A stretch of DNA of 64,000 nt from Cadophora sp. MPI-SDFR-AT-0126 (taxonomy: Eukaryota; Ascomycota; Leotiomycetes; Helotiales; Ploettnerulaceae): contig JAGMVK010000005.1 of NCBI GenBank assembly GCA_020747065.1, positions 2,108,001 through 2,172,000 of the forward strand, given 5' to 3'. Positions 3,563-64,000 of this stretch are shown in pieces (position 1 is the first letter of the stretch; each line of letters starts with the position of its first letter). The position numbers and the translations under genes are program-made. The notes under the pieces were generated by a model. It made no database searches. It saw only the letters and a program-made list of their open reading frames with translations, and was not told the origin of the DNA.

Positions 3563-4642
3563 CTAGAGCTTGCCCACGTTGAGTTTCGGAATGGGCGGTC
3601 CAGTACCACTTCTTGCCCGTCGTTCCCTCTCCAAAGTGCCTGGTGGCCCTCCAGACAGCTTGCTCGTCTTGAACCTTCCATCAAGGCCCTTGACCCAGTC
3701 ATCATCAGCCTGTCCACCTAGCCAGTAGCTCTCGCCAAACATAACCATGATTCTTCCCAATTTGCCTCTCCATCCAGCGCCTGCGGGCGATCCGACCGTA
3801 AATGGATTGTCCGACCTTCCCTCAGATACTCCATCCGTGTGTAGATGTAACTTCGCTGATGAAGTTGAGTACATGTGCTGTCTGAGAACTTGTCTTGCGT
3901 AGGCCATGACGACAAGAATGAAGTACAATCGGACCATGGTCAACATGACCACGACCATAATGCTCGGTATACTCTCTTCGATTCCAACGCCGTGTACCAG
4001 GCTTGGGTTTGCGGCTATCGCAGGTGCTGCGCCAGGCATCCCATAAGCAACAGCTTCCTGTCCCCCCGTGATCCCTTCGCCGGGAGTTGTCGACACGCCG
4101 ACCTTGCTCACGTTATATTTAGGGCTTGTGAAGCCAGCGGTTTCGCCAACTGTGCTCCCTCCAGGTGCGTTGCTCGGGAGGCTCTTGTTCGCATTATCGG
4201 CGCTTACGGCGAGGAACCAGGTGATGGCGAAGGCAGACGTAAATGCGGTATTGATGACCGTGTCGAAGAGGTAGAACCAAGCTAGTGCTAGGCATTCAAA
4301 CGGGCTCTGTTTTCGTATATGAGGCATCAGGAAGGAGATGAGGGCGAGCGCGCCAACGGAGTAGATGTACATCGAGAGCTGAAGAGGGGAGAGCGAAACG
4401 CCTGTGAGAATTGCGAGCAGACCGAAGAAGCCAGTGAGTTTGTTGAAGATTACAGAGAGCGATACCATCTCAACGCCTGTCCGCAGGCTCATGAGATACA
4501 GAAAAGTCTATTGGCATGATTAGCATCTTGCATCTTGTTGGAACTGCAAATTCAGACAACAATCTGCCAAGGGAATTCGATCGGGAAAGTTGCAACGTAC
4601 TCTTGGGCGGGGAACCCGTAGGTATCGCGATAGGATACCCAT
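3563..4642 (-). CDS. KEI1: Inositol phosphorylceramide synthase regulatory subunit Kei1 (DUF1753)
   Basis: Kei1 is the Golgi membrane partner of inositol phosphorylceramide synthase Aur1 in sphingolipid synthesis. Two exons, 4642-4601 (14 codons) and 4507-3563, with intron 4508-4600 (GTACGT donor, AATAG acceptor), give 328 aa. The short first exon supplies the conserved start MGILSRYLRVPRPR, joined to TFLYLMSLRTGVE. Four hydrophobic stretches are visible: about 25-50, 55-75, 85-115 and near 190-215. The loop between the last two is long and Gly/Ser/Thr-rich, and the cytosolic tail is basic and Gly-rich. Start choice rests on the splice phase and the N-terminal motif of fungal homologues. Neighbour of YPT6, another Golgi gene, on the same strand but 692 bp apart. 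Confidence 0.9.
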
Positions 4643-25928: not shown

Positions 25929-26387
25929 ATGCTGTATATCACTGAATACCAATTGTATTTTATTCTCGGTCTGTCTTAAGTCATATCGGAAAGATCGATG
26001 AAGTAGCGATGCTTCAGTAGACAATTGCTCAAGCAGTTTCCCGGTGCAGTTAAGTTTACAAGATCTCTTGGTATTGATAATTAGACGCCATAAGGCACTA
26101 AGCAGCATGGCTCTGGCCACCCAGATCGTGCAATTCTATTCCCGTCATGCAATAACTTCTTGGGAGGTTTCCAGGTTGGGTCCATGGAGTCATTGAGGTC
26201 ATTGAGCTGTACCCGCTGGTACTGTCCTTGGGCTGAGTCTGGGCGAGCTGGTGGGGCTAAAGAGGCGACGCCATGGCCAAGGCTAAGGCACTACTATGTA
26301 GCCTGCGTAGCGTAGCCGAGAGAGCAGGGCACACAAACTTTGGTTCTTAGTGATATTGAAATAAGCGCAACGAACGCATGACAACCT
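25929..26387. other. Intergenic upstream of tRNA-Val
   Basis: 459 bp: glycosyltransferase 3' flank and the tRNA 5' flank. No other gene seen. Confidence 0.45.
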
Positions 26388-26410
26388 GGTCGGGTGGTGT
26401 AGTTGGTTAT

Positions 26411-26461
26411 GTACGTTGCCTCGAACTACTGTGATGCATCTCCATACTAACAATTTCACAG
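26411..26461 (+). other. 51-nt GT-AG, spliceosomal-type insertion inside the tRNA D-arm
   Basis: Starts GTACGT, has TACTAAC at 26445-26451 and ends TTTCACAG, all fungal pre-mRNA intron signals, with branch A to acceptor distance 11 nt. Its ends are unambiguous: sliding the excision by one base either way changes the mature tRNA. With it in place the D-stem cannot form between neighbouring bases. Confidence 0.7.
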
Positions 26462-26476
26462 CACATCTCGTTAACA

Positions 26477-26505
26477 GTTTACTGTCTACATGGTTATTCA
26501 TACCG
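26477..26505 (+). other. Canonical tRNA intron (position 37/38)
   Basis: 29 nt one base 3' of the AAC anticodon, the normal site cut by the tRNA splicing endonuclease. It contains GTTA, which can pair with the TAAC around the anticodon (A-I helix). Confidence 0.7.
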
Positions 26506-26552
26506 CCGAGAAGGTCCTGGGATCGAGCCCCAGCCTGATCAATGTCAATCTA

Positions 26553-26565
26553 TTTTTATTTTTTT
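26553..26565 (+). terminator. Pol III terminator T-runs
   Basis: T5 at 26553-26557 and T7 at 26559-26565, 11 nt past the mature tRNA 3' end. Confidence 0.7.
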
Positions 26566-39720: not shown

Positions 39721-42700
39721 ATGGACGATCTTGAATCCCTTGAGCTTCTTTCGTTGGTCTCCAAGGTGACATCGGAACTCCAGAACCATCTAGGAATCAG
39801 CGACAAGACGCTAGCGGAGTTCATTATAGCGCAGCACTCAGAATGCAAGTCCCTCGAGGAGTTTCGGACGAAGCTAGATACTATGGGTGCGGAATTCCCA
39901 CAGAGTTTGATAGAGAGCGTGGATCGTTTGGTGCGGACTATGCATCCAAAATTCAAGGGTGCGAAGAGGATAGGCAGGGAACAAACCTCGAATGGGTCTC
40001 GAAAACTGGAGGAAAAGACAAAGGTTTTTAAGGGGCTTGCAATGCCCGACTTGGAAATACCTTGGCAGGAAGATGCGACTGGAGAACTTGCAAATGGAGC
40101 TGCGAATCCTGGGACGGATGCAATCGACGACACCTTGGCGCTACTAGAAGGTCTAGAGAGCAAAGCAAGAACCGAGAGGCCCACCCAGTCCAGTCGTAAA
40201 CGAAGTCGAAGCCCCAACGATGAATACGATCGAGGTAGAAGTCGGAAGGATAAATGTAGATCACGATCACGATCTGTGGAGGGAAGACGGCGCAGAAAAT
40301 CCTTGTATGGGGAAGAAGATGAATATGGCCGGTCAAGAACTGGGCACAGAAGCAGCCGGCGGAGAAGGGAAGAAGACGACCCATTCAGGCGGCCACCGAC
40401 GCCGGAAATCGATGATGCGCCAATAATTTTCAAGGTCTATGATGGACATGTTACAGGAGTGAAGGATTTCGGCGCATTCGTCAATATTCATGGAGTCAAA
40501 GGTAAGGTTGATGGGCTCGTTCATGTGTCAGCTTTGGTGGAAGGTCAGCGCGTCAATCATCCATCTGACCTGGTCACAAGAGGCCAGCCAGTGAAGGTCA
40601 AAGTCACCAAAATAGAAGGCTCGAGGATTGGACTTTCAATGAAGGAAGTCGATCAGGAGACTGGAAGAGATCTGGCTCCCCAGGCGAGAATACAATCCGG
40701 TGCCAACATGGAACAGATCGGAGGAGGCAAGGACGAGTATAACCTCGTAGACGATAAGGTCCTCGTCTTCGAAGGTGACATGACGAACAATTCCCGGCGA
40801 CCAAAAAAGAGAATGACTTCTCCAGAGCGGTGGGAGATCCGTCAACTTATCGCATCCGGAGTTGTGAAAGCCTCAGATTATCCAGATCTGGATGAAGACT
40901 ACAACGCTACACTCAATGGCGAGGGCGAGATGGAGTTGGAGCAGGATGTAGATATCGAGCTCCGAGAAGAAGAACCGCCCTTCCTTGCTGGCCAAACGAA
41001 GCAATCATTAGAGCTGTCTCCCATTCGAGTGGTTAAGGCTCCTGATGGTTCTATGAATCGAGCTGCTATGGCTGGAGCTACCTTGGCGAAGGACCGAAAG
41101 GAATTGAGGTCACAGGAAGCACAAGACAAAGCAGCTGAAGAGGGCTCCAAGATTGATTTATCGGCGCAGTGGCATGATCCCATGGCAGACCCAGACGAAA
41201 AGAAGTTTGCCAGCGATCTCCGTGCCATCAAAGCAACTCCGGCAACCGAGGCTATACCAGAATGGAAAAGGGCCACTCAAAGTAAGGATCAATCCTTTGG
41301 GCGACGAACAGACATGACCATCAAGCAACAAAGAGAGTCCTTGCCCGTGTACAGATTTAGATCGGAGCTGATCAAAGCCGTACACGCGAATCAGTTGCTG
41401 ATTGTCGTTGGGGACACCGGATCTGGGAAGACGACACAGCTAACTCAATATCTGGCAGAGGCTGGATTTGCTAACAACGGCATGATTGGATGTACCCAAC
41501 CACGTCGCGTCGCTGCTATGTCAGTCGCGAAGCGTGTTGCCGAGGAGGTCGGATGCGAGCTAGGTCAAGAAGTTGGTTACACAATCCGATTCGAGGATTG
41601 TACCAGTCCTGCAACAAAGATCAAGTACATGACTGACGGCATGTTACAACGTGAGATCCTGATGGACCCCGACATCAGGAGATACTCCGTCATCATGCTG
41701 GATGAAGCCCACGAACGTACGATTTCTACTGACGTCCTCTTCGCATTGTTGAAGAAAACGATCAAACGGCGGCCGGATTTGAAGGTCATAGTAACCTCTG
41801 CGACTCTGGATGCGGACAAGTTCTCGGCGTACTTCAATGAATGTCCCATATTCTCGATCCCTGGTCGGACTTTCCCTGTCGAGGTTATGTATTCGCGGGA
41901 ACCGGAATCTGATTACCTGGATGCTGCTCTGGTAACAGTAATGCAAATCCACCTGACAGAACCTCCGGGAGACATCCTTCTCTTCTTGACTGGCCAGGAA
42001 GAGATTGACACTAGCTGCGAAATCCTCTTCGAGCGCATGAAAGCTCTTGGCCCAAGCGTCCCGGAACTCATCATTCTCCCAGTGTACTCAGCATTGCCAA
42101 GTGAGATGCAAAGCAAGATCTTTGATCCTGCGCCTCCCGGGAGTAGGAAAGTCGTAATAGCCACAAACATTGCTGAAACATCAATCACGATCGATCACAT
42201 CTACTATGTTATCGATCCTGGCTTTGTCAAACAGAACGCCTATGATCCAAAACTAGGGATGGACTCGCTTGTCATCACTCCTATTTCACAGGCCCAGGCC
42301 AAACAACGTGCCGGGCGTGCTGGGAGAACCGGGCCTGGGAAATGCTTCCGTCTCTACACAGAATCTGCTTTCCAGTCGGAAATGCTGCCAACCTCCATCC
42401 CCGAAATTCAACGACAAAATTTATCACATACTATCCTCATGCTCAAGGCGATGGGGATCAACGATCTCTTGCATTTCGACTTCATGGACCCTCCCCCGAC
42501 AAATACCATGTTGACAGCCCTCGAAGAACTTTATGCCTTATCTGCATTAGATGACGAAGGTCTGTTGACCCGGCTCGGTCGAAAGATGGCAGATTTTCCT
42601 ATGGAACCCTCGCTCGCCAAGGTTTTGATAGCGGCGGTTGATCTTGGATGCTCTGATGAGATTCTAAGCATTGTTGCAATGTTGTCGATGCCATCTGTCT

Positions 42701-43338
42701 TCTATCGCCCCAAGGAGAAGCAGTCACAAGCTGACCAGAAGAAGGCCAAATTCCATGATCCACATGGAGATCATCTCACTCTGTTGAACGTATACAATGG
42801 CTGGAAGCAGAACAAATTTGCGAACCCATGGTGCTTCGAAAACTTCATCCAAGCTCGGTCAATGCGCCGCGCAAAGGATGTACGGGATCAGCTCGTCAGT
42901 ATCATGGACAGGTACAAACACCCTGTTGTGTCGTGCGGTCGCAATACGCAGAAAGTCAGGCAAGCTCTGTGTAGCGGATACTTTCGTAACTCGGCGCGAA
43001 AGGATCCTCAGGAAGGCTACAAGACCCTCATCGAGGGTACACCAGTTTACCTGCATCCAAGCTCGGCGCTTTTTGGAAAGCAGGCGGAATGGGTAATCTA
43101 TCACACGCTCATCATGACGAGCAAGGAGTACATGCACTGCACTACTTCCATTGAACCAAAATGGCTCGTCGAGGCTGCTCCGTCATTCTTCAAGGTCGCA
43201 CCGACAGACAAATTGAGCAAGCGAAAGAAGGCCGAAAGGATCCAGCCACTGTATAACAAGTTTGCTGCCGAGGATGATTGGAGGCTTTCTTCACAGAAAC
43301 GTCAAGGCAGGGGTGGCGGGGGTGGAACTTGGGGCTGA
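39721..43338 (+). CDS. PRP22: Pre-mRNA splicing DEAH-box RNA helicase Prp22 (DHX8)
   Basis: Releases mature mRNA from the spliceosome. Single exon, 1205 aa. The N-terminus holds an RS/charged linker (about 150-220), then an S1 RNA-binding domain at about 235-305 (VYDGHVTGVKDFGAFVNIHG). DEAH helicase core: GDTGSGKTTQ (about 563-572), CTQPRRVAAMSVA, DEAH (about 660-663), SATLDADKFS, FLTGQEEID, TNIAETSITI and QRAGRAGRTGPG (about 861-872). HA2/OB domains follow, then a Gly-rich end. Length matches fungal Prp22 (about 1150-1250). An intronless splicing factor among intron-dense neighbours. Confidence 0.96.
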   Translation: MDDLESLELLSLVSKVTSELQNHLGISDKTLAEFIIAQHSECKSLEEFRTKLDTMGAEFPQSLIESVDRLVRTMHPKFKGAKRIGREQTSNGSRKLEEKTKVFKGLAMPDLEIPWQEDATGELANGAANPGTDAIDDTLALLEGLESKARTERPTQSSRKRSRSPNDEYDRGRSRKDKCRSRSRSVEGRRRRKSLYGEEDEYGRSRTGHRSSRRRREEDDPFRRPPTPEIDDAPIIFKVYDGHVTGVKDFGAFVNIHGVKGKVDGLVHVSALVEGQRVNHPSDLVTRGQPVKVKVTKIEGSRIGLSMKEVDQETGRDLAPQARIQSGANMEQIGGGKDEYNLVDDKVLVFEGDMTNNSRRPKKRMTSPERWEIRQLIASGVVKASDYPDLDEDYNATLNGEGEMELEQDVDIELREEEPPFLAGQTKQSLELSPIRVVKAPDGSMNRAAMAGATLAKDRKELRSQEAQDKAAEEGSKIDLSAQWHDPMADPDEKKFASDLRAIKATPATEAIPEWKRATQSKDQSFGRRTDMTIKQQRESLPVYRFRSELIKAVHANQLLIVVGDTGSGKTTQLTQYLAEAGFANNGMIGCTQPRRVAAMSVAKRVAEEVGCELGQEVGYTIRFEDCTSPATKIKYMTDGMLQREILMDPDIRRYSVIMLDEAHERTISTDVLFALLKKTIKRRPDLKVIVTSATLDADKFSAYFNECPIFSIPGRTFPVEVMYSREPESDYLDAALVTVMQIHLTEPPGDILLFLTGQEEIDTSCEILFERMKALGPSVPELIILPVYSALPSEMQSKIFDPAPPGSRKVVIATNIAETSITIDHIYYVIDPGFVKQNAYDPKLGMDSLVITPISQAQAKQRAGRAGRTGPGKCFRLYTESAFQSEMLPTSIPEIQRQNLSHTILMLKAMGINDLLHFDFMDPPPTNTMLTALEELYALSALDDEGLLTRLGRKMADFPMEPSLAKVLIAAVDLGCSDEILSIVAMLSMPSVFYRPKEKQSQADQKKAKFHDPHGDHLTLLNVYNGWKQNKFANPWCFENFIQARSMRRAKDVRDQLVSIMDRYKHPVVSCGRNTQKVRQALCSGYFRNSARKDPQEGYKTLIEGTPVYLHPSSALFGKQAEWVIYHTLIMTSKEYMHCTTSIEPKWLVEAAPSFFKVAPTDKLSKRKKAERIQPLYNKFAAEDDWRLSSQKRQGRGGGGGTWG

Positions 43339-58458: not shown

Positions 58459-60268
58459 TCATCCGCCTCTAATAGGCCCTCCATCTCCAATAGCATTTTC
58501 TCTGTCCCATATCGCATCATCCAGTTCAATAACCTCAGCACTTCTCTTCTTCTCCCTGCCCCCTCGAAGAACATTCGTGCTCTCCTGACTAGCTCTTTCC
58601 CCTAAGACCCCACTATTATGTCCAACCCTCGAGTCCGTCGAAATCAACCTCAGACCTGACCTAGTACCATTCTTCGAACCCGAAGAGCCGGACCACAAGG
58701 GACCGGCTTTCGTCATCCACGTCTGTCTAGAACCATAGCGACCCCTTCCAGATTCAGTATCAGAGTCACGAGTCGATGGAAACAGTACTGGGAAGCACTT
58801 CATGAGGAGAGGTCGGATAGCCATTAAGCAAGAGCAAATGACTGCTGTATATGCTTCGAGATCGGACCAGATGACAGCATCCACATTGTACCCTAGTTAT
58901 CCATTGCTATCAGTGATTGACTTGATTTACCCGAGAGAGACTCGAACATCGAGCGTACGAAAGAGACTCACAAGTATCATCGATCGTAACTTTATAATAC
59001 CAAACATATTTCAACCGGATCATACTGGTGACACAAGCACTATACTCGTCAATCTCCAAGTCTTGCCAATGCGGAGGGAATAAAACTTACACGGATCCCA
59101 GAGCAAACATTGCACACAACGCAGTCCTCTTCCTCTTACTCATTTTCAGTCCCTTCAATTCCGAAATCGGCAACAAGATAATAAAAATATCTTCGAAGAT
59201 ACTGAAAAACGCCCCTGAAAGCACCATGGCGCGCAAATCTACACATTTTCGATCTAGAGTATAATGCCATGCAGATTGCACTGGCGAGCATTGGAATATG
59301 AGGATTGATATATAGATTATGGTATGGATGAGCTGCCATATGATTGCGCATTTGGTGACGACGCGAAACTTTGCGCCGGGGAAGATGCGGAGGTAAAGCA
59401 AGAGGATGGAGAGTTTGGCGAGGTTTTGTACGAGGACGTAGATTATGGTGGCGATGAAGTAGAGCTGGGGACTGTTAGTCGGGTCTTTGATGGTATAGAA
59501 GGTTTGGGGATGTTACGAGTTGTAATTGTTGGGAGTTTTCAGCTGGGATATTCCAGATGTGTTTTCCTAGGCCGTGGTATGAAGCTGTGCTGTGTTAGCC
59601 ATTTTCGCAATGTAAGAAGATGGGATAGAACTATACTGTAGATTGGTATAGTTGACATTGGAATCATGAGAGTCTAATTTTTTTTCTTCTTTTAGTACTG
59701 GTACCCTAAGAATCGAGGGAGTTCTTACGCCTGAAAACAGCACCATCCAATCATCCCACCACACTCTTTGGGCGATCCATACTCTCGATATCAAGCGCAA
59801 AGCGATCATGGGAAAGGTGAAAGCAGCAAGGATGATTTCGGCGCGGACGATCTCGCTACTTCGAGACGGATAGGGAACATCTTTACAAAGCTGTTCACGA
59901 AAAATTTCCGACGCAGCTAGAAGGTAGATAATATTAGCCCGGATAATATATAGGGAAGAGTAAGAGTAGTTTGAAACATACTAATTTGTTCGGTCTGGTT
60001 GCACGCGCCGAAAACGCACAATGATAGATCGTACTGTAAGGTGTCGTTGGTGCAGAGACAGTTAGGAATATCTGTGAATTCACAGCCTGCACGATCTAAA
60101 CTGACCAAAGTGCAATTGACCTGGAATTAGTCAATTGACAGGAAACGCACGAAGATTTCGTGATTTACTTACCGAGCAAGCAGGTGCCACCTGCCCCTCA
60201 ATTCGCTCTGCGTGGGATACAAGCAATATCACGAAGGAAGTCCAGAACCAGAAGTAAGGCAGAATCAT
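58459..60268 (-). CDS. CFEM-domain Pth11-like (rhodopsin-type) receptor, probable frameshift
   Basis: Surface receptor type used by filamentous fungi to sense hosts and surfaces. Exons 60268-60173, 60120-59982, 59916-59729, 59635-59517, 59464-59091, 59024-58972, 58892-58459. Signal peptide MILPYFWFWTSFVILLVSHA, then a CFEM domain with regularly spaced Cys (APACS|VNCTLVSL, GCEFTDIPNCLC, CVFGACNQ). The seven-helix Pth11/rhodopsin region follows (IVRAEIILAAFTFPMIALRL, WWDDWMVLFSG, LAKLSILLLYLRIFPGAKF), then a hydrophilic tail. Exon 4 is 119 nt while its flanking introns are both phase 0. The frame slips near 59570, between ANTAQLHTT and GLGKHIWNIP. One missing base there explains it, so this allele may be null. 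Confidence 0.75.
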
Positions 60269-61569
60269 CTTGACGAAAGCAGCGACGCCTCAAGTCAACT
60301 CTGCTGAGGACGAAAGACTTATAAAGTACATAAGGACTACTTTAATATATTGAAGAGTCGTGGCAGATGGAGACTAAAAGCCAAAGAAAGAGGTAGAGTG
60401 GGAGCGTGGGGCCTGTGTACATAGTGTCACAGGAGGAAATGTGCCATGCAAGTTCATGATCGCAGGCATTCCAGACAAGAAGGGGGCGCTGTCACAAGGG
60501 CATTTGCCCTGTTATTCTCCTTTCTTGTCCTATGAGTCGAATACAAAGCCCCGCTCGATCTCGAACCAGCGCAAGCCACAGCAAAGGCCCCTAGCCGAAT
60601 ACAAGTCAGGAACCGTTTCCAGACGCGAATCATACCATCAGAGTTCTTTCGCACCTCTTTTCACTATTAGTTCATAGAAAACTTCTTCTCGACAACCTTT
60701 AAGATGGATTGCTTTTACGACAGTATTAAATGACCCACCGACCTTGAAGCGGAACACTTCCTATCCTGCTACTACATTCTTTCTCCTCGCGATTTCAAAC
60801 AACCTGGCATTGGTGCACGCCACCATCGCATTGACTGTCTCCTGTGAACGCACGTTCCTGAACCCCGTGTCATCTGATACCATCGCGTCCTGTCCCATCC
60901 CACTCACCGGGTCAAATTAATTCATTCAAGACTCGATCGTCGATATATACTACGCAACTATTGGTGGGAATCCAAATTTCAAGCCATTCAGGACTCGTAC
61001 AAGGATCTTCCGTAGGAAGTGCCTTCTTTTGGTACAGGTGAGGTTACAGGAACCTCATCCCGCCTCGCTTCGGCACTGCACTTGATGGCGTTCTGACCAC
61101 ATCGCTTAGATGCAAGATCCCCTGTCAGTGAATCCTGACGGGCTGTATGGAGTCCTGTGCCTTGATCTGGTTCGAAGATGGAGTCCGAATGGGTTCTCGC
61201 ACGGACCTGATAGTCATCAGAATGTATGCATGTACACCTCCGTATGCAGCGTGATAAGCGATGAGTGACACTGGAATATGCGGAGTAGGAATCAAACTTT
61301 CTTGGTAGACTCGGAAACGTCGTGCAGGTGTGACAAGATTGCCAGAACTTGTTGAATGCTCGAGAAGTTGGGATCTTAGGACTTGATGAGTTTGTAAAGT
61401 AGTGAAGGTGGTGAGTACCAAGGAATTGCTCCGCCGCGAGTAATAAGTCGGGCTAGGAGACAAGAGGGGGAGGGATTGAGGGCAGATTTGCTTGGTTCTT
61501 TCCAGGTACGGTGTTACTCTGTGCTACTTTTCAATTATATCTAGTTGAAACGTCAAGGGGAGGAATTCT
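60269..61569. other. Intergenic, receptor promoter and boundary to AT-rich block
   Basis: 1.3 kb of normal base composition, no supported gene. The minus-strand frame 61125-61463 lacks family resemblance. Confidence 0.4.
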
Positions 61570-64000
61570 AGATGTGTATAGCCCGGATATCTCGAGATCA
61601 AGCGGTAAACTAGTCGTTTTCATAACTAGTTTTAGTAACGCGAGCTACCTAGGTTACTTAAACGAAAATCTAATTTTCTCTGTTTACCTTTTGCTTACGC
61701 ACGCTCCTATCTACTCTATCTTTAAATACTTATAATAATAAATACCTTGAGAAAATAATAATTAAATATATAAATTTTGATTTTATGCTATTTATACTAA
61801 TATTAAAAGTATACTTATAAAGAAGTAATATTTATTTTTAAGTAAAGTATATATCCTAAAAAATTTAGGAATTAAAGCAAAGATAAAGAAAGAATAAAGA
61901 AGAATTATAGGCTTTTATAATTCTTTTACTTTAGAAAGATAGTTATTATATATTCCCTTAAGCTATAAAACGCCTTTTAATATCTTAATAAGTTCTCTAC
62001 TTAAATTAAGAGTAAATAAAGTACTATATCTTAGTAAATATTAAAGTATTATGAAATACTCTTAAAAATTCCTTTAATTGTATTATTTAATATTATTCTA
62101 CTCTTTTTTAAATTTTACTATTTAGTAATAATAGAAAAGATATTATAACTTTGTAATATATTTAAATCTTATTAATTAATTTTTTAAATAACTTATATAA
62201 GGTTTAATTAAACTTAAAGGCGAAAGTAATAATATATATAATTTTAAACTTAATTATATTATCAATTAAACGTACTATAATCTTTAAAATATTATTATTT
62301 CTTATAATTTAATTCCTTAGTAATATATTAATAAAAAAATTTAAAAAATTAACTTTTAAGATATTAATATAAAGAAAACCGAATTAATATCTTTTATTAA
62401 ATCTAAAAAGAATATAAAGAAGGAAATCTTTTATATTATATTTAATTAGCTACTTTAAAAACTCTTAAGTATTTGTAAATATAGAAAATTATAGTTCACT
62501 AGAATATAATCAATAAGATACTAGTAGTTTTGTCGGTTCAATACCGAATATAAGCCAAGAATTAAACGTAAATATCATATATATGCATATCAAGCTTAAT
62601 AGTATGGAAAATCTATGTATTTCTAAGAGGGGGCGGGAGATACTAGACTATATACTGCCTCCGAAATGCTACTAAATCGCCTTTATAAGTGGTCCTACCC
62701 CTTATTCTAGCTGAGACATGTCCTATATAGGCCTATAGACTAACACCGGTAAATCTTCTTTTAGAAAGATAGTTTCTAAGCGAATCTCTATTATAGAAGT
62801 GAATCTCTATTCTAATTATAAAAAAAGTTGCAAAGAGTAACTATATAAGTAAAGAAGGTAAAATAAGTGTACTAAGTACAGAGCTACAGAAGTACTATAG
62901 TCCGAAAGACCTTTAGTTATAGCCTAAAAGCTATACGTTGGAAGTAGTTAATACAGCTTATTAGAAGATAATAGTAAGTAAATAAATACTAAGTGAGGCT
63001 ATTACTAGCTATATAAAACCGAGATCTCTCTCTATTCTGAAGCTCTCTTTCCTTAAGTAAATATTAAAGAACTACTTATAAGTATATAAATCTTCGATCT
63101 TAAGAAATATTCGCTAATATTTTACTATAGTCTGTACTAAATCAAATAAGTAAAAGTAAGTATAGAAATTTAAAAGAATTATAAGTAATTCAGTAGTAAA
63201 ACAGATACTAATATAAATAGTACCTACACTAATATTATTCAGAGCTCTCACTACTACTCACTGAAATTACTATATCTGTTATATTCGACTCTTAGTGAAG
63301 AAATCGAACTACGTCTACTCCTTTAATAAGTAAGAGAGTAAGAAATACTTGTACTATACTAAAAAGAAATCCTTATATAATCCCGTAAGTACCCCCCCTC
63401 CCTTTTTCTAATCCTAAATTCTGAATTACCTTAAATATAATCCGTAACTAACTTATTTATAGATCCCTTAGTTCTTAAATACCGAGTACTAAGAACTCAC
63501 CTATACCCTTGCTAGTGAGGATATTACTGCTATCTCTACTACTATTATAGCTATTAATACAGAACTCCGGGTTATAGCTACCGAACTACTAAAGACTCGG
63601 GATAAGATAAGTTTAGTATTATTAGAGAAGACTCGTACTCTCTATACTAAGATAGTAGATCTTACTTAAAGTTAATTCGTAAGTAATCCCCTTTTCTTTT
63701 ATTCTAAATCTTTATTAAATATACTTTAATTCCTATTTAGCTAAAACTTCTATAGGACTATAAGTAGATCCTCTCTTGTATAGAGAAGCGAGTTAAGGAG
63801 GCTATAGCTTCTATTATATCTTATTATAGTAGTGTTAAGTATAAGACCCTTATAGAAGATAATAGAGATAGAGATAGAGAAGGTTTAAGCCCTTAGGTAA
63901 AGAGAAATCAGGGTGGAAGTTACTTAAGTAGCGCGGGGGAGAAGGAATTTAGTAATATACTAGTTAATCTAAGTATTACTTATAAGTAGGGGAATAGGCC
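61570..64000. repeat. Extremely AT-rich, RIP-like degenerate block
   Basis: From about 61570 base composition changes abruptly to very high A+T with dense TA steps and almost no GC-rich words, continuing to the window edge. No open frame of gene size. The pattern is what repeat-induced point mutation leaves in transposon copies; the original element cannot be identified. A short frame near 63510-63670 could encode an alpha-helical run (NTELRVIATELLKTRDKI), perhaps a relic. Confidence 0.7.

Follow-up and report, generated by a model that had tools for sequence, protein, structure and literature searches.

Spliceosomal-type introns in tRNA genes of a Cadophora genome, including the D-arm of tRNA-Val(AAC)

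Our data identified 21 spliceosomal-type introns, 47 to 74 nt long, in 19 tRNA genes of the Cadophora sp. MPI-SDFR-AT-0126 genome. The host tRNAs belong to nine amino acids (Val, Thr, His, Asn, Ile, Arg, Met, Ala, and Pro), and the introns interrupt the acceptor stem, D-arm, variable loop, T-stem, and T-loop. One of the 21 is a 51-nt insert in the D-arm of a tRNA-Val(AAC) gene within the stretch of 64,000 nt that we analyzed (the window), which belongs to a 54-Mb genome of 38 contigs. The original prediction had described this gene as a single odd case; instead, the insert is one instance of a feature shared by many tRNA genes of this genome. Judging from the sequence, it is very probably a spliceosomal intron, carried by what is probably an RNA polymerase III (Pol III) precursor on which the spliceosome would act before the Sen endonuclease acts at position 37/38.

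The Val(AAC) gene occupies positions 26388..26541 of the window on the plus strand, as do all of its features described here, and was recognized by direct reading, by genome BLAST, and by ARAGORN run on the joined exons. Exon 1 (26388..26410), which is the same in all four genomic copies, supplies the 5' strand of the acceptor stem and the D-arm to base 22. By direct reading it contains TGGTGTAGTTGG (26395..26406), which we take to be the A box and which sits just upstream of the insertion, as had been predicted. The D-arm intron (26411..26461; 51 nt) begins with GTACGT, has its branch site, TACTAAC, at 26445..26451, and ends in CACAG, with 11 nt from the branch A to the intron end; an equivalent site and equivalent signals recur in the three other copies. 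Exon 2 (26462..26476) completes the 3' strand of the D-arm and the anticodon arm to base 37, with the anticodon AAC, and is followed by an ordinary 29-nt tRNA intron at 37/38 (26477..26505), both being evident from direct reading and from the paralogs. Exon 3 (26506..26541), again the same in 4/4 copies, runs from base 38 to base 73 and includes GGATCGAGCC (26520..26529), presumably the B box. By our reading, 125 bases separate the start of the A box from that of the B box. Upstream, an AAATAA element common to other tRNA genes of the genome is found 29 nt 5' of the gene (26359..26364), and downstream, runs of five and seven T residues (26553..26565) form Pol III-type terminators.

Once joined, the exons yield 74 nt that ARAGORN calls tRNA-Val(aac) with a score of 111.9, bearing out the predicted combination of a D-arm insert and a 37/38 intron. 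In its unspliced form, the gene escaped detection: ARAGORN found no tRNA in the window, even with introns of up to 70 nt allowed, and Rfam returned no match in the window at the gathering score. When the threshold was relaxed, a single Rfam match overlapped the gene, to the snoRNA Afu_304; it was dismissed as chance (E 0.74; 17.3 bits versus a gathering score of 35).

In the window, GGTTATGTNNGT..CTAAY..AG has a single match, compared with none in 100 shuffles. Across the whole genome this pattern has nine matches, the four Val(AAC) genes among them, versus seven for the reversed control, so that in 54 Mb the pattern by itself is unselective and its location inside a tRNA is what matters. Position, paralogs, and decoy motifs together rule out a chance occurrence.

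The paralogs were obtained by BLAST, independently of splice signals. With the window gene as the query, four Val(AAC) copies were retrieved from four contigs, each aligned over positions 1 to 154, and an intron-free Val sequence returned these four alone among the best candidates, the only ones scored by the tool. The proposed check for other Val(AAC) genes thus turned up three more, all with the insert, in addition to one ambiguous locus (see below). The 74 exon bases are identical in all four copies, and each is called Val(aac). Between bases 22 and 23, every copy carries an insert (47, 51, 53, or 58 nt) with GTNNGT, a CTAAY 9 to 10 nt from its end, and a terminal CAG, while the 37/38 introns of the other three copies measure 18, 17, and 17 nt. 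In the six pairwise comparisons, the insert cores between these signals share 50 to 62% identity versus shuffle means of 47 to 56%; one pair stands 2.75 SD above its shuffles and the other five less, which counts against full divergence. Conserved exons and conserved signals surrounding intron bodies that have mostly drifted are what one would expect to see if these were functional spliceosomal introns.

To survey the genome, we read 128 regions, drawn from 52 Rfam tRNA matches, from sites that matched B-box patterns, and from the copies of the Val gene. The sites read included 77 of 86 for GGTTCGAWTCC and 19 of 87 for GGTTCGASYCC; GGATCGANNCC has 420 sites, of which 100 were listed and very few were read. 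Pieces of 40 to 80 nt conforming to GTNNG..CTRAY..AG (290 candidates) were excised, and a tRNA spanning the junction resulted in 18 of the 128 regions, whereas three decoy motifs (150, 227, and 265 candidates) gave such tRNAs in 1, 3, and 1 regions. Seventeen of the 18 were kept, the junction of L065 lying at the gene edge. A second Asn(GTT) gene emerged from a further genome pattern with four matches, three of them tRNA genes, versus three matches for its reversed control.

In addition to the four Val(AAC) genes, the intron-bearing set includes two His(GTG) genes interrupted in the D-arm, two Thr(AGT) genes interrupted in the D-loop at sites one base apart, and two Asn(GTT) genes interrupted 3' of the D-stem. 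Three Ile(AAT) genes carry their introns in the acceptor stem, at two sites one base apart, as does Arg(TCT), past the sixth or seventh base; in Ala(AGC) the intron lies in the T-stem. In Arg(ACG) and Arg(TCG) it lies in the T-loop, where it splits the B box by 50 to 54 bp (L110, positions 155-208 of its region, plus strand; L067, minus strand). A genome pattern search for further B-box-splitting introns found only these two Arg genes (two matches, both tRNA genes, versus three in the control). The most heavily interrupted gene, Pro(CGG) (L103, minus strand), requires three excisions, in the acceptor stem, in the interval between the D-arm and anticodon arm, and in the variable loop, and also contains a 37/38 intron, giving five exons over about 245 bp. 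The Met gene, with an intron in the variable loop, is the weakest case, since ARAGORN favors another donor (111.7 versus 109.5) and names the spliced form Leu; by eye, it is Met(CAT). All 19 spliced products were called tRNA by ARAGORN, and decayed exons, as expected of pseudogenes, were not seen. Among the genes read, 19 of the 68 readable tRNA genes carry a spliceosomal-type intron.

The interrupted genes could in principle be pseudogenes, spare copies that were hit by introns or other DNA while other genes supply the cell. Compatible with this explanation are the intron-free paralogs that exist for Thr, Ile, and Arg, the possible silence of the two Arg genes with a split B box, and the partial nature of the tRNA inventory (68 readable genes). 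Yet every one of the 19 spliced products is recognized as a tRNA, the Val exons are identical in four copies with diverged intron cores, and the genes read include, locus L160 aside, none for Val(AAC), His(GTG), or Asn(GTT) that lacks such an interruption. Moreover, GTC is a common Val codon, accounting for 28 of the 67 Val codons in the Prp22 ORF of the window. GUC is decoded by Val(AAC), and His and Asn are each served by a single tRNA, His(GTG) and Asn(GTT), respectively. We therefore regard decay of these genes as very unlikely, and the suggestion that the window gene is a recently inactivated copy is disfavored on the same evidence, namely, the insert in 4/4 copies, the identical exons, and the signals kept in diverged introns. 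L160 is a Val-like locus with good acceptor and T-arms that ARAGORN names Val(aac), placing a 14-nt intron at an odd position; its anticodon arm is unreadable by eye, and it may be an AAC gene without a D-arm intron. Another tRNA-like locus, L100, likewise has good acceptor and T-arms and an unreadable anticodon arm.

GTNNG, CTRAY, and AG are present in 21/21 introns; the searches that yielded most of them required these motifs, but the four Val genes came from a BLAST search free of this requirement. The distance from the end of CTRAY to the intron end is 8 to 12 nt in 20 of the 21 and 16 nt in the remaining one. A GT 5' splice site with the fungal consensus and a branch CTRAY near the 3' end followed by a terminal AG are the features of U2-type introns. 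In length and signals, the tRNA introns (47 to 74 nt) also resemble the protein-gene introns of the window (46 to 74 nt), for which joining of reading frames yielded eight candidates at six places versus one and one in the decoys. Only frame joining separated signal from background here: a stricter mRNA-intron motif applied to the window without the frame test gave four matches versus five, three, and six for decoys.

How precisely can the borders be placed? The claim that those of the window intron are unambiguous holds for the sequence, in which no equivalent shift exists, and the splice signals and three paralogs make them exact; structure alone leaves a slack of a few bases. When 10,755 deletions of the window gene were scored without regard to motif, 22 others outscored the GT..AG deletion (maximum 105.8 versus 104.5), and the four of these that were listed lie one or two bases off its borders. 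Extending this motif-blind scan to all deletions of 36 to 80 nt in the 18 single-intron genes, we found that the GT..AG deletion ranked top, alone or with sequence-equivalent shifts, in nine, and in the second Thr gene it was one of 16 tied best. It was not top in the remaining eight (the four Val genes, the first Thr gene, both Asn genes, and Met), owing to slack from D-loop length or from the 37/38 intron; for Met, 585 other deletions outscore it. Uninterrupted paralogs offer a separate comparison. Two spliced Ile(AAT) genes match an uninterrupted Ile(AAT) gene at 74/74 bases, and both spliced Thr(AGT) genes have in common with an uninterrupted Thr(AGT) gene a 28-base stretch spanning the join. 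The genome also contains uninterrupted Arg(TCT), Arg(ACG), and Arg(TCG) genes.

A different machinery could in theory remove these inserts. The original prediction had considered a new substrate of the tRNA endonuclease, and ectopic and multiple tRNA introns are indeed described for the red alga Cyanidioschyzon merolae and for archaea (PMC3978253). Sen-type introns are moreover in use in this genome: outside the 19 loci, ARAGORN called 49 distinct tRNAs (some of them misnamed), of which 33 bear an intron label. Still, all 21 introns lie elsewhere than at 37/38, and a fully paired 4-bp central helix of a bulge-helix-bulge motif, in both of the versions sought, was formed at 0/21 junctions. Shifted borders gave zero to two, indicating a low background for this test, which considers fully paired helices only. 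What the inserts do have in common, GTNNG, CTRAY, and AG, is needless for an endonuclease. Cleavage of ectopic introns by Sen is accordingly the least credible of the explanations considered, and highly improbable, and removal by the spliceosome is strongly favored, its signals being found again and again (21 introns spread over 19 tRNA genes, at many places) and U6 genes carrying an intron of the same kind.

Other types of mobile or catalytic DNA were also discarded. Group I and group II introns have a catalytic core of hundreds of bases; self-splicing introns are ruled out by lengths of 47 to 74 nt and by zero Rfam matches in the window at the gathering score. An introner element is ruled out as well, the introns sharing only short matches of 8 to 16 nt, many at the branch site, and the paralog cores being at or slightly above shuffle level. 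In contigs from viruses, the intron pattern had no match; in genome contigs it had two, both in contigs of bacterial metagenome-assembled genomes that on reading contained no tRNA.

Introns of this kind also interrupt U6 snRNA genes of the same genome. Rfam identified four loci (L111, L112, L113, and L114), three above the cutoff and one below it (E 8e-7). Two of the four contain 51-nt introns of the form GTAAGY..CTAAC..TTTCAG at two sites, one after AGCATGGC and one after TTTGGTCAAT; by reading, one of the remaining loci is uninterrupted and one is degenerate. Three of the four are situated within 4 kb on contig C38. The 5S rRNA matches listed (26, with 47 candidates scored) are 119 to 121 nt long and are, by this length, intron free. 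Canzler in 2016 is cited for reportedly describing mRNA-type introns in fungal U6 and U3 genes. Such introns are known in fungal U6 snRNA, and a paper from 2017 names U3 and U6 as the sole small structured RNAs in which an intron is known to occur often (PMC5832005). The introns described here are likewise short GT..branch..AG introns of spliceosomal type inside small structured RNA genes, whereas their hosts are tRNAs of nine amino acids.

Which polymerase transcribes the interrupted genes bears on how the spliceosome would reach them. Spliceosomes normally work on RNA polymerase II (Pol II) transcripts, and the spliceosome might act here on read-through or dedicated long Pol II transcripts instead of on Pol III precursors. 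The window gene would be suitably placed, on the same strand as the upstream ORF, 460 nt past it and about 340 nt ahead of the next ORF, and the split B box of two Arg genes and the missing nearby T-run of both His genes also fit Pol II transcription. Against this stands the upstream and downstream organization that most intron-bearing genes tested have kept in common with other tRNA genes. AAATAA occurs within 75 nt upstream of 11/18 intron-bearing genes (Pro left out, and four of the 18 with short flanks), 21/31 other tRNA genes, and 7/124 background windows. A looser upstream pattern, picked after viewing the sequences, is found in 27/31 other genes, 13/16 intron-bearing genes (those with flanks shorter than 40 nt left out), and 13/124 background windows. 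A T-run follows within 60 nt in 13 of the 15 intron-bearing genes tested, all but the two His genes, and in 35/35 genes of a further set that includes the four Val genes. In addition, U6, which is transcribed by Pol III in known fungi, is intron bearing in this genome too. Dependence on Pol II thus appears unlikely, if somewhat less so than the other two alternatives, and the intron-bearing tRNA precursors probably derive from Pol III. The two B-box-split Arg genes also lack the common upstream element and may therefore be silent or use another promoter; together with the two His genes, they are perhaps not expressed.

On the basis of these data, we propose a model for the maturation of Val(AAC). 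First, Pol III would synthesize the precursor, from which the spliceosome would remove the D-arm intron. Only then could the cloverleaf fold, and the Sen endonuclease and a ligase would subsequently take out the 37/38 intron. This order is suggested by the fact that Sen requires the tRNA body to be folded; likely contacts of Sen54 are the D-arm and acceptor stem (PMC3978253). A 37/38 intron accompanies the new intron in 13 of the 19 genes. Because every readable Val(AAC) (four), His(GTG) (two), and Asn(GTT) (two) gene contains a spliceosomal-type intron, the cell should depend on splicing, barring an unread gene or L160. We thus consider it somewhat probable that in this lineage the spliceosome has become an obligatory tRNA maturation enzyme, making translation splicing dependent, with many Pol III precursors passing two unrelated splicing machines in succession and with introns having spread to most tRNA arms and even to the B box.

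In the textbook view, the machinery that splices mRNA plays no part in making tRNAs, and here it seems to be needed. If correct, tRNA precursors would be possible routine substrates of the spliceosome (at least 20 introns with full signals in one genome) and translation would be coupled to splicing capacity. The original prediction knew of no such case in ascomycetes, and in the literature searched, we too found no tRNA gene reported to contain a spliceosomal intron; reports may exist beyond it. Spliceosomal introns occur in nuclear rRNA genes of lichen fungi, which likewise places them outside Pol II genes, although in Pol I-transcribed rRNA and not in tRNA. Unlike nuclear 37/38 introns, the inserts described here are located elsewhere than in the anticodon loop and bear spliceosomal signals, and none of their junctions forms the central helix of a bulge-helix-bulge. 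With the ectopic introns of C. merolae and archaea they have in common that several may occur per tRNA gene and outside 37/38, the D-arm being named for archaea, but those introns are tied to a bulge-helix-bulge and the endonuclease (PMC3978253). As late as 2026, tRNA splicing was reviewed as spliceosome independent (PMC13149111).

These introns may also account for tRNAs that appear to be "missing" from annotations: tRNA finders look for introns at 37/38, and ARAGORN is blind to the unspliced window gene. Interrupted and uninterrupted paralogs in one genome, furthermore, constitute a natural system for studying the entry of introns into new genes.

Some further observations concern the surroundings. 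Three tRNA-like loci (L104, L105, and L141) have good T-arms and T-runs on the 3' side, and by eye their acceptor stems pair in the inner four bases only. Within the window, the Prp22/DHX8 spliceosomal helicase is encoded by an uninterrupted ORF (39721-43338), and a Kei1 protein (3566-4492) is 91% identical to a protein of a Leptodontidium sp. and 88% identical to one of Rhynchosporium graminicola, which, judged by this single protein, places the genome in the Helotiales. The last 4 kb (60001-64000) has a G+C content of 34.7%, versus 43.7 to 50.6% in the other 4-kb windows.
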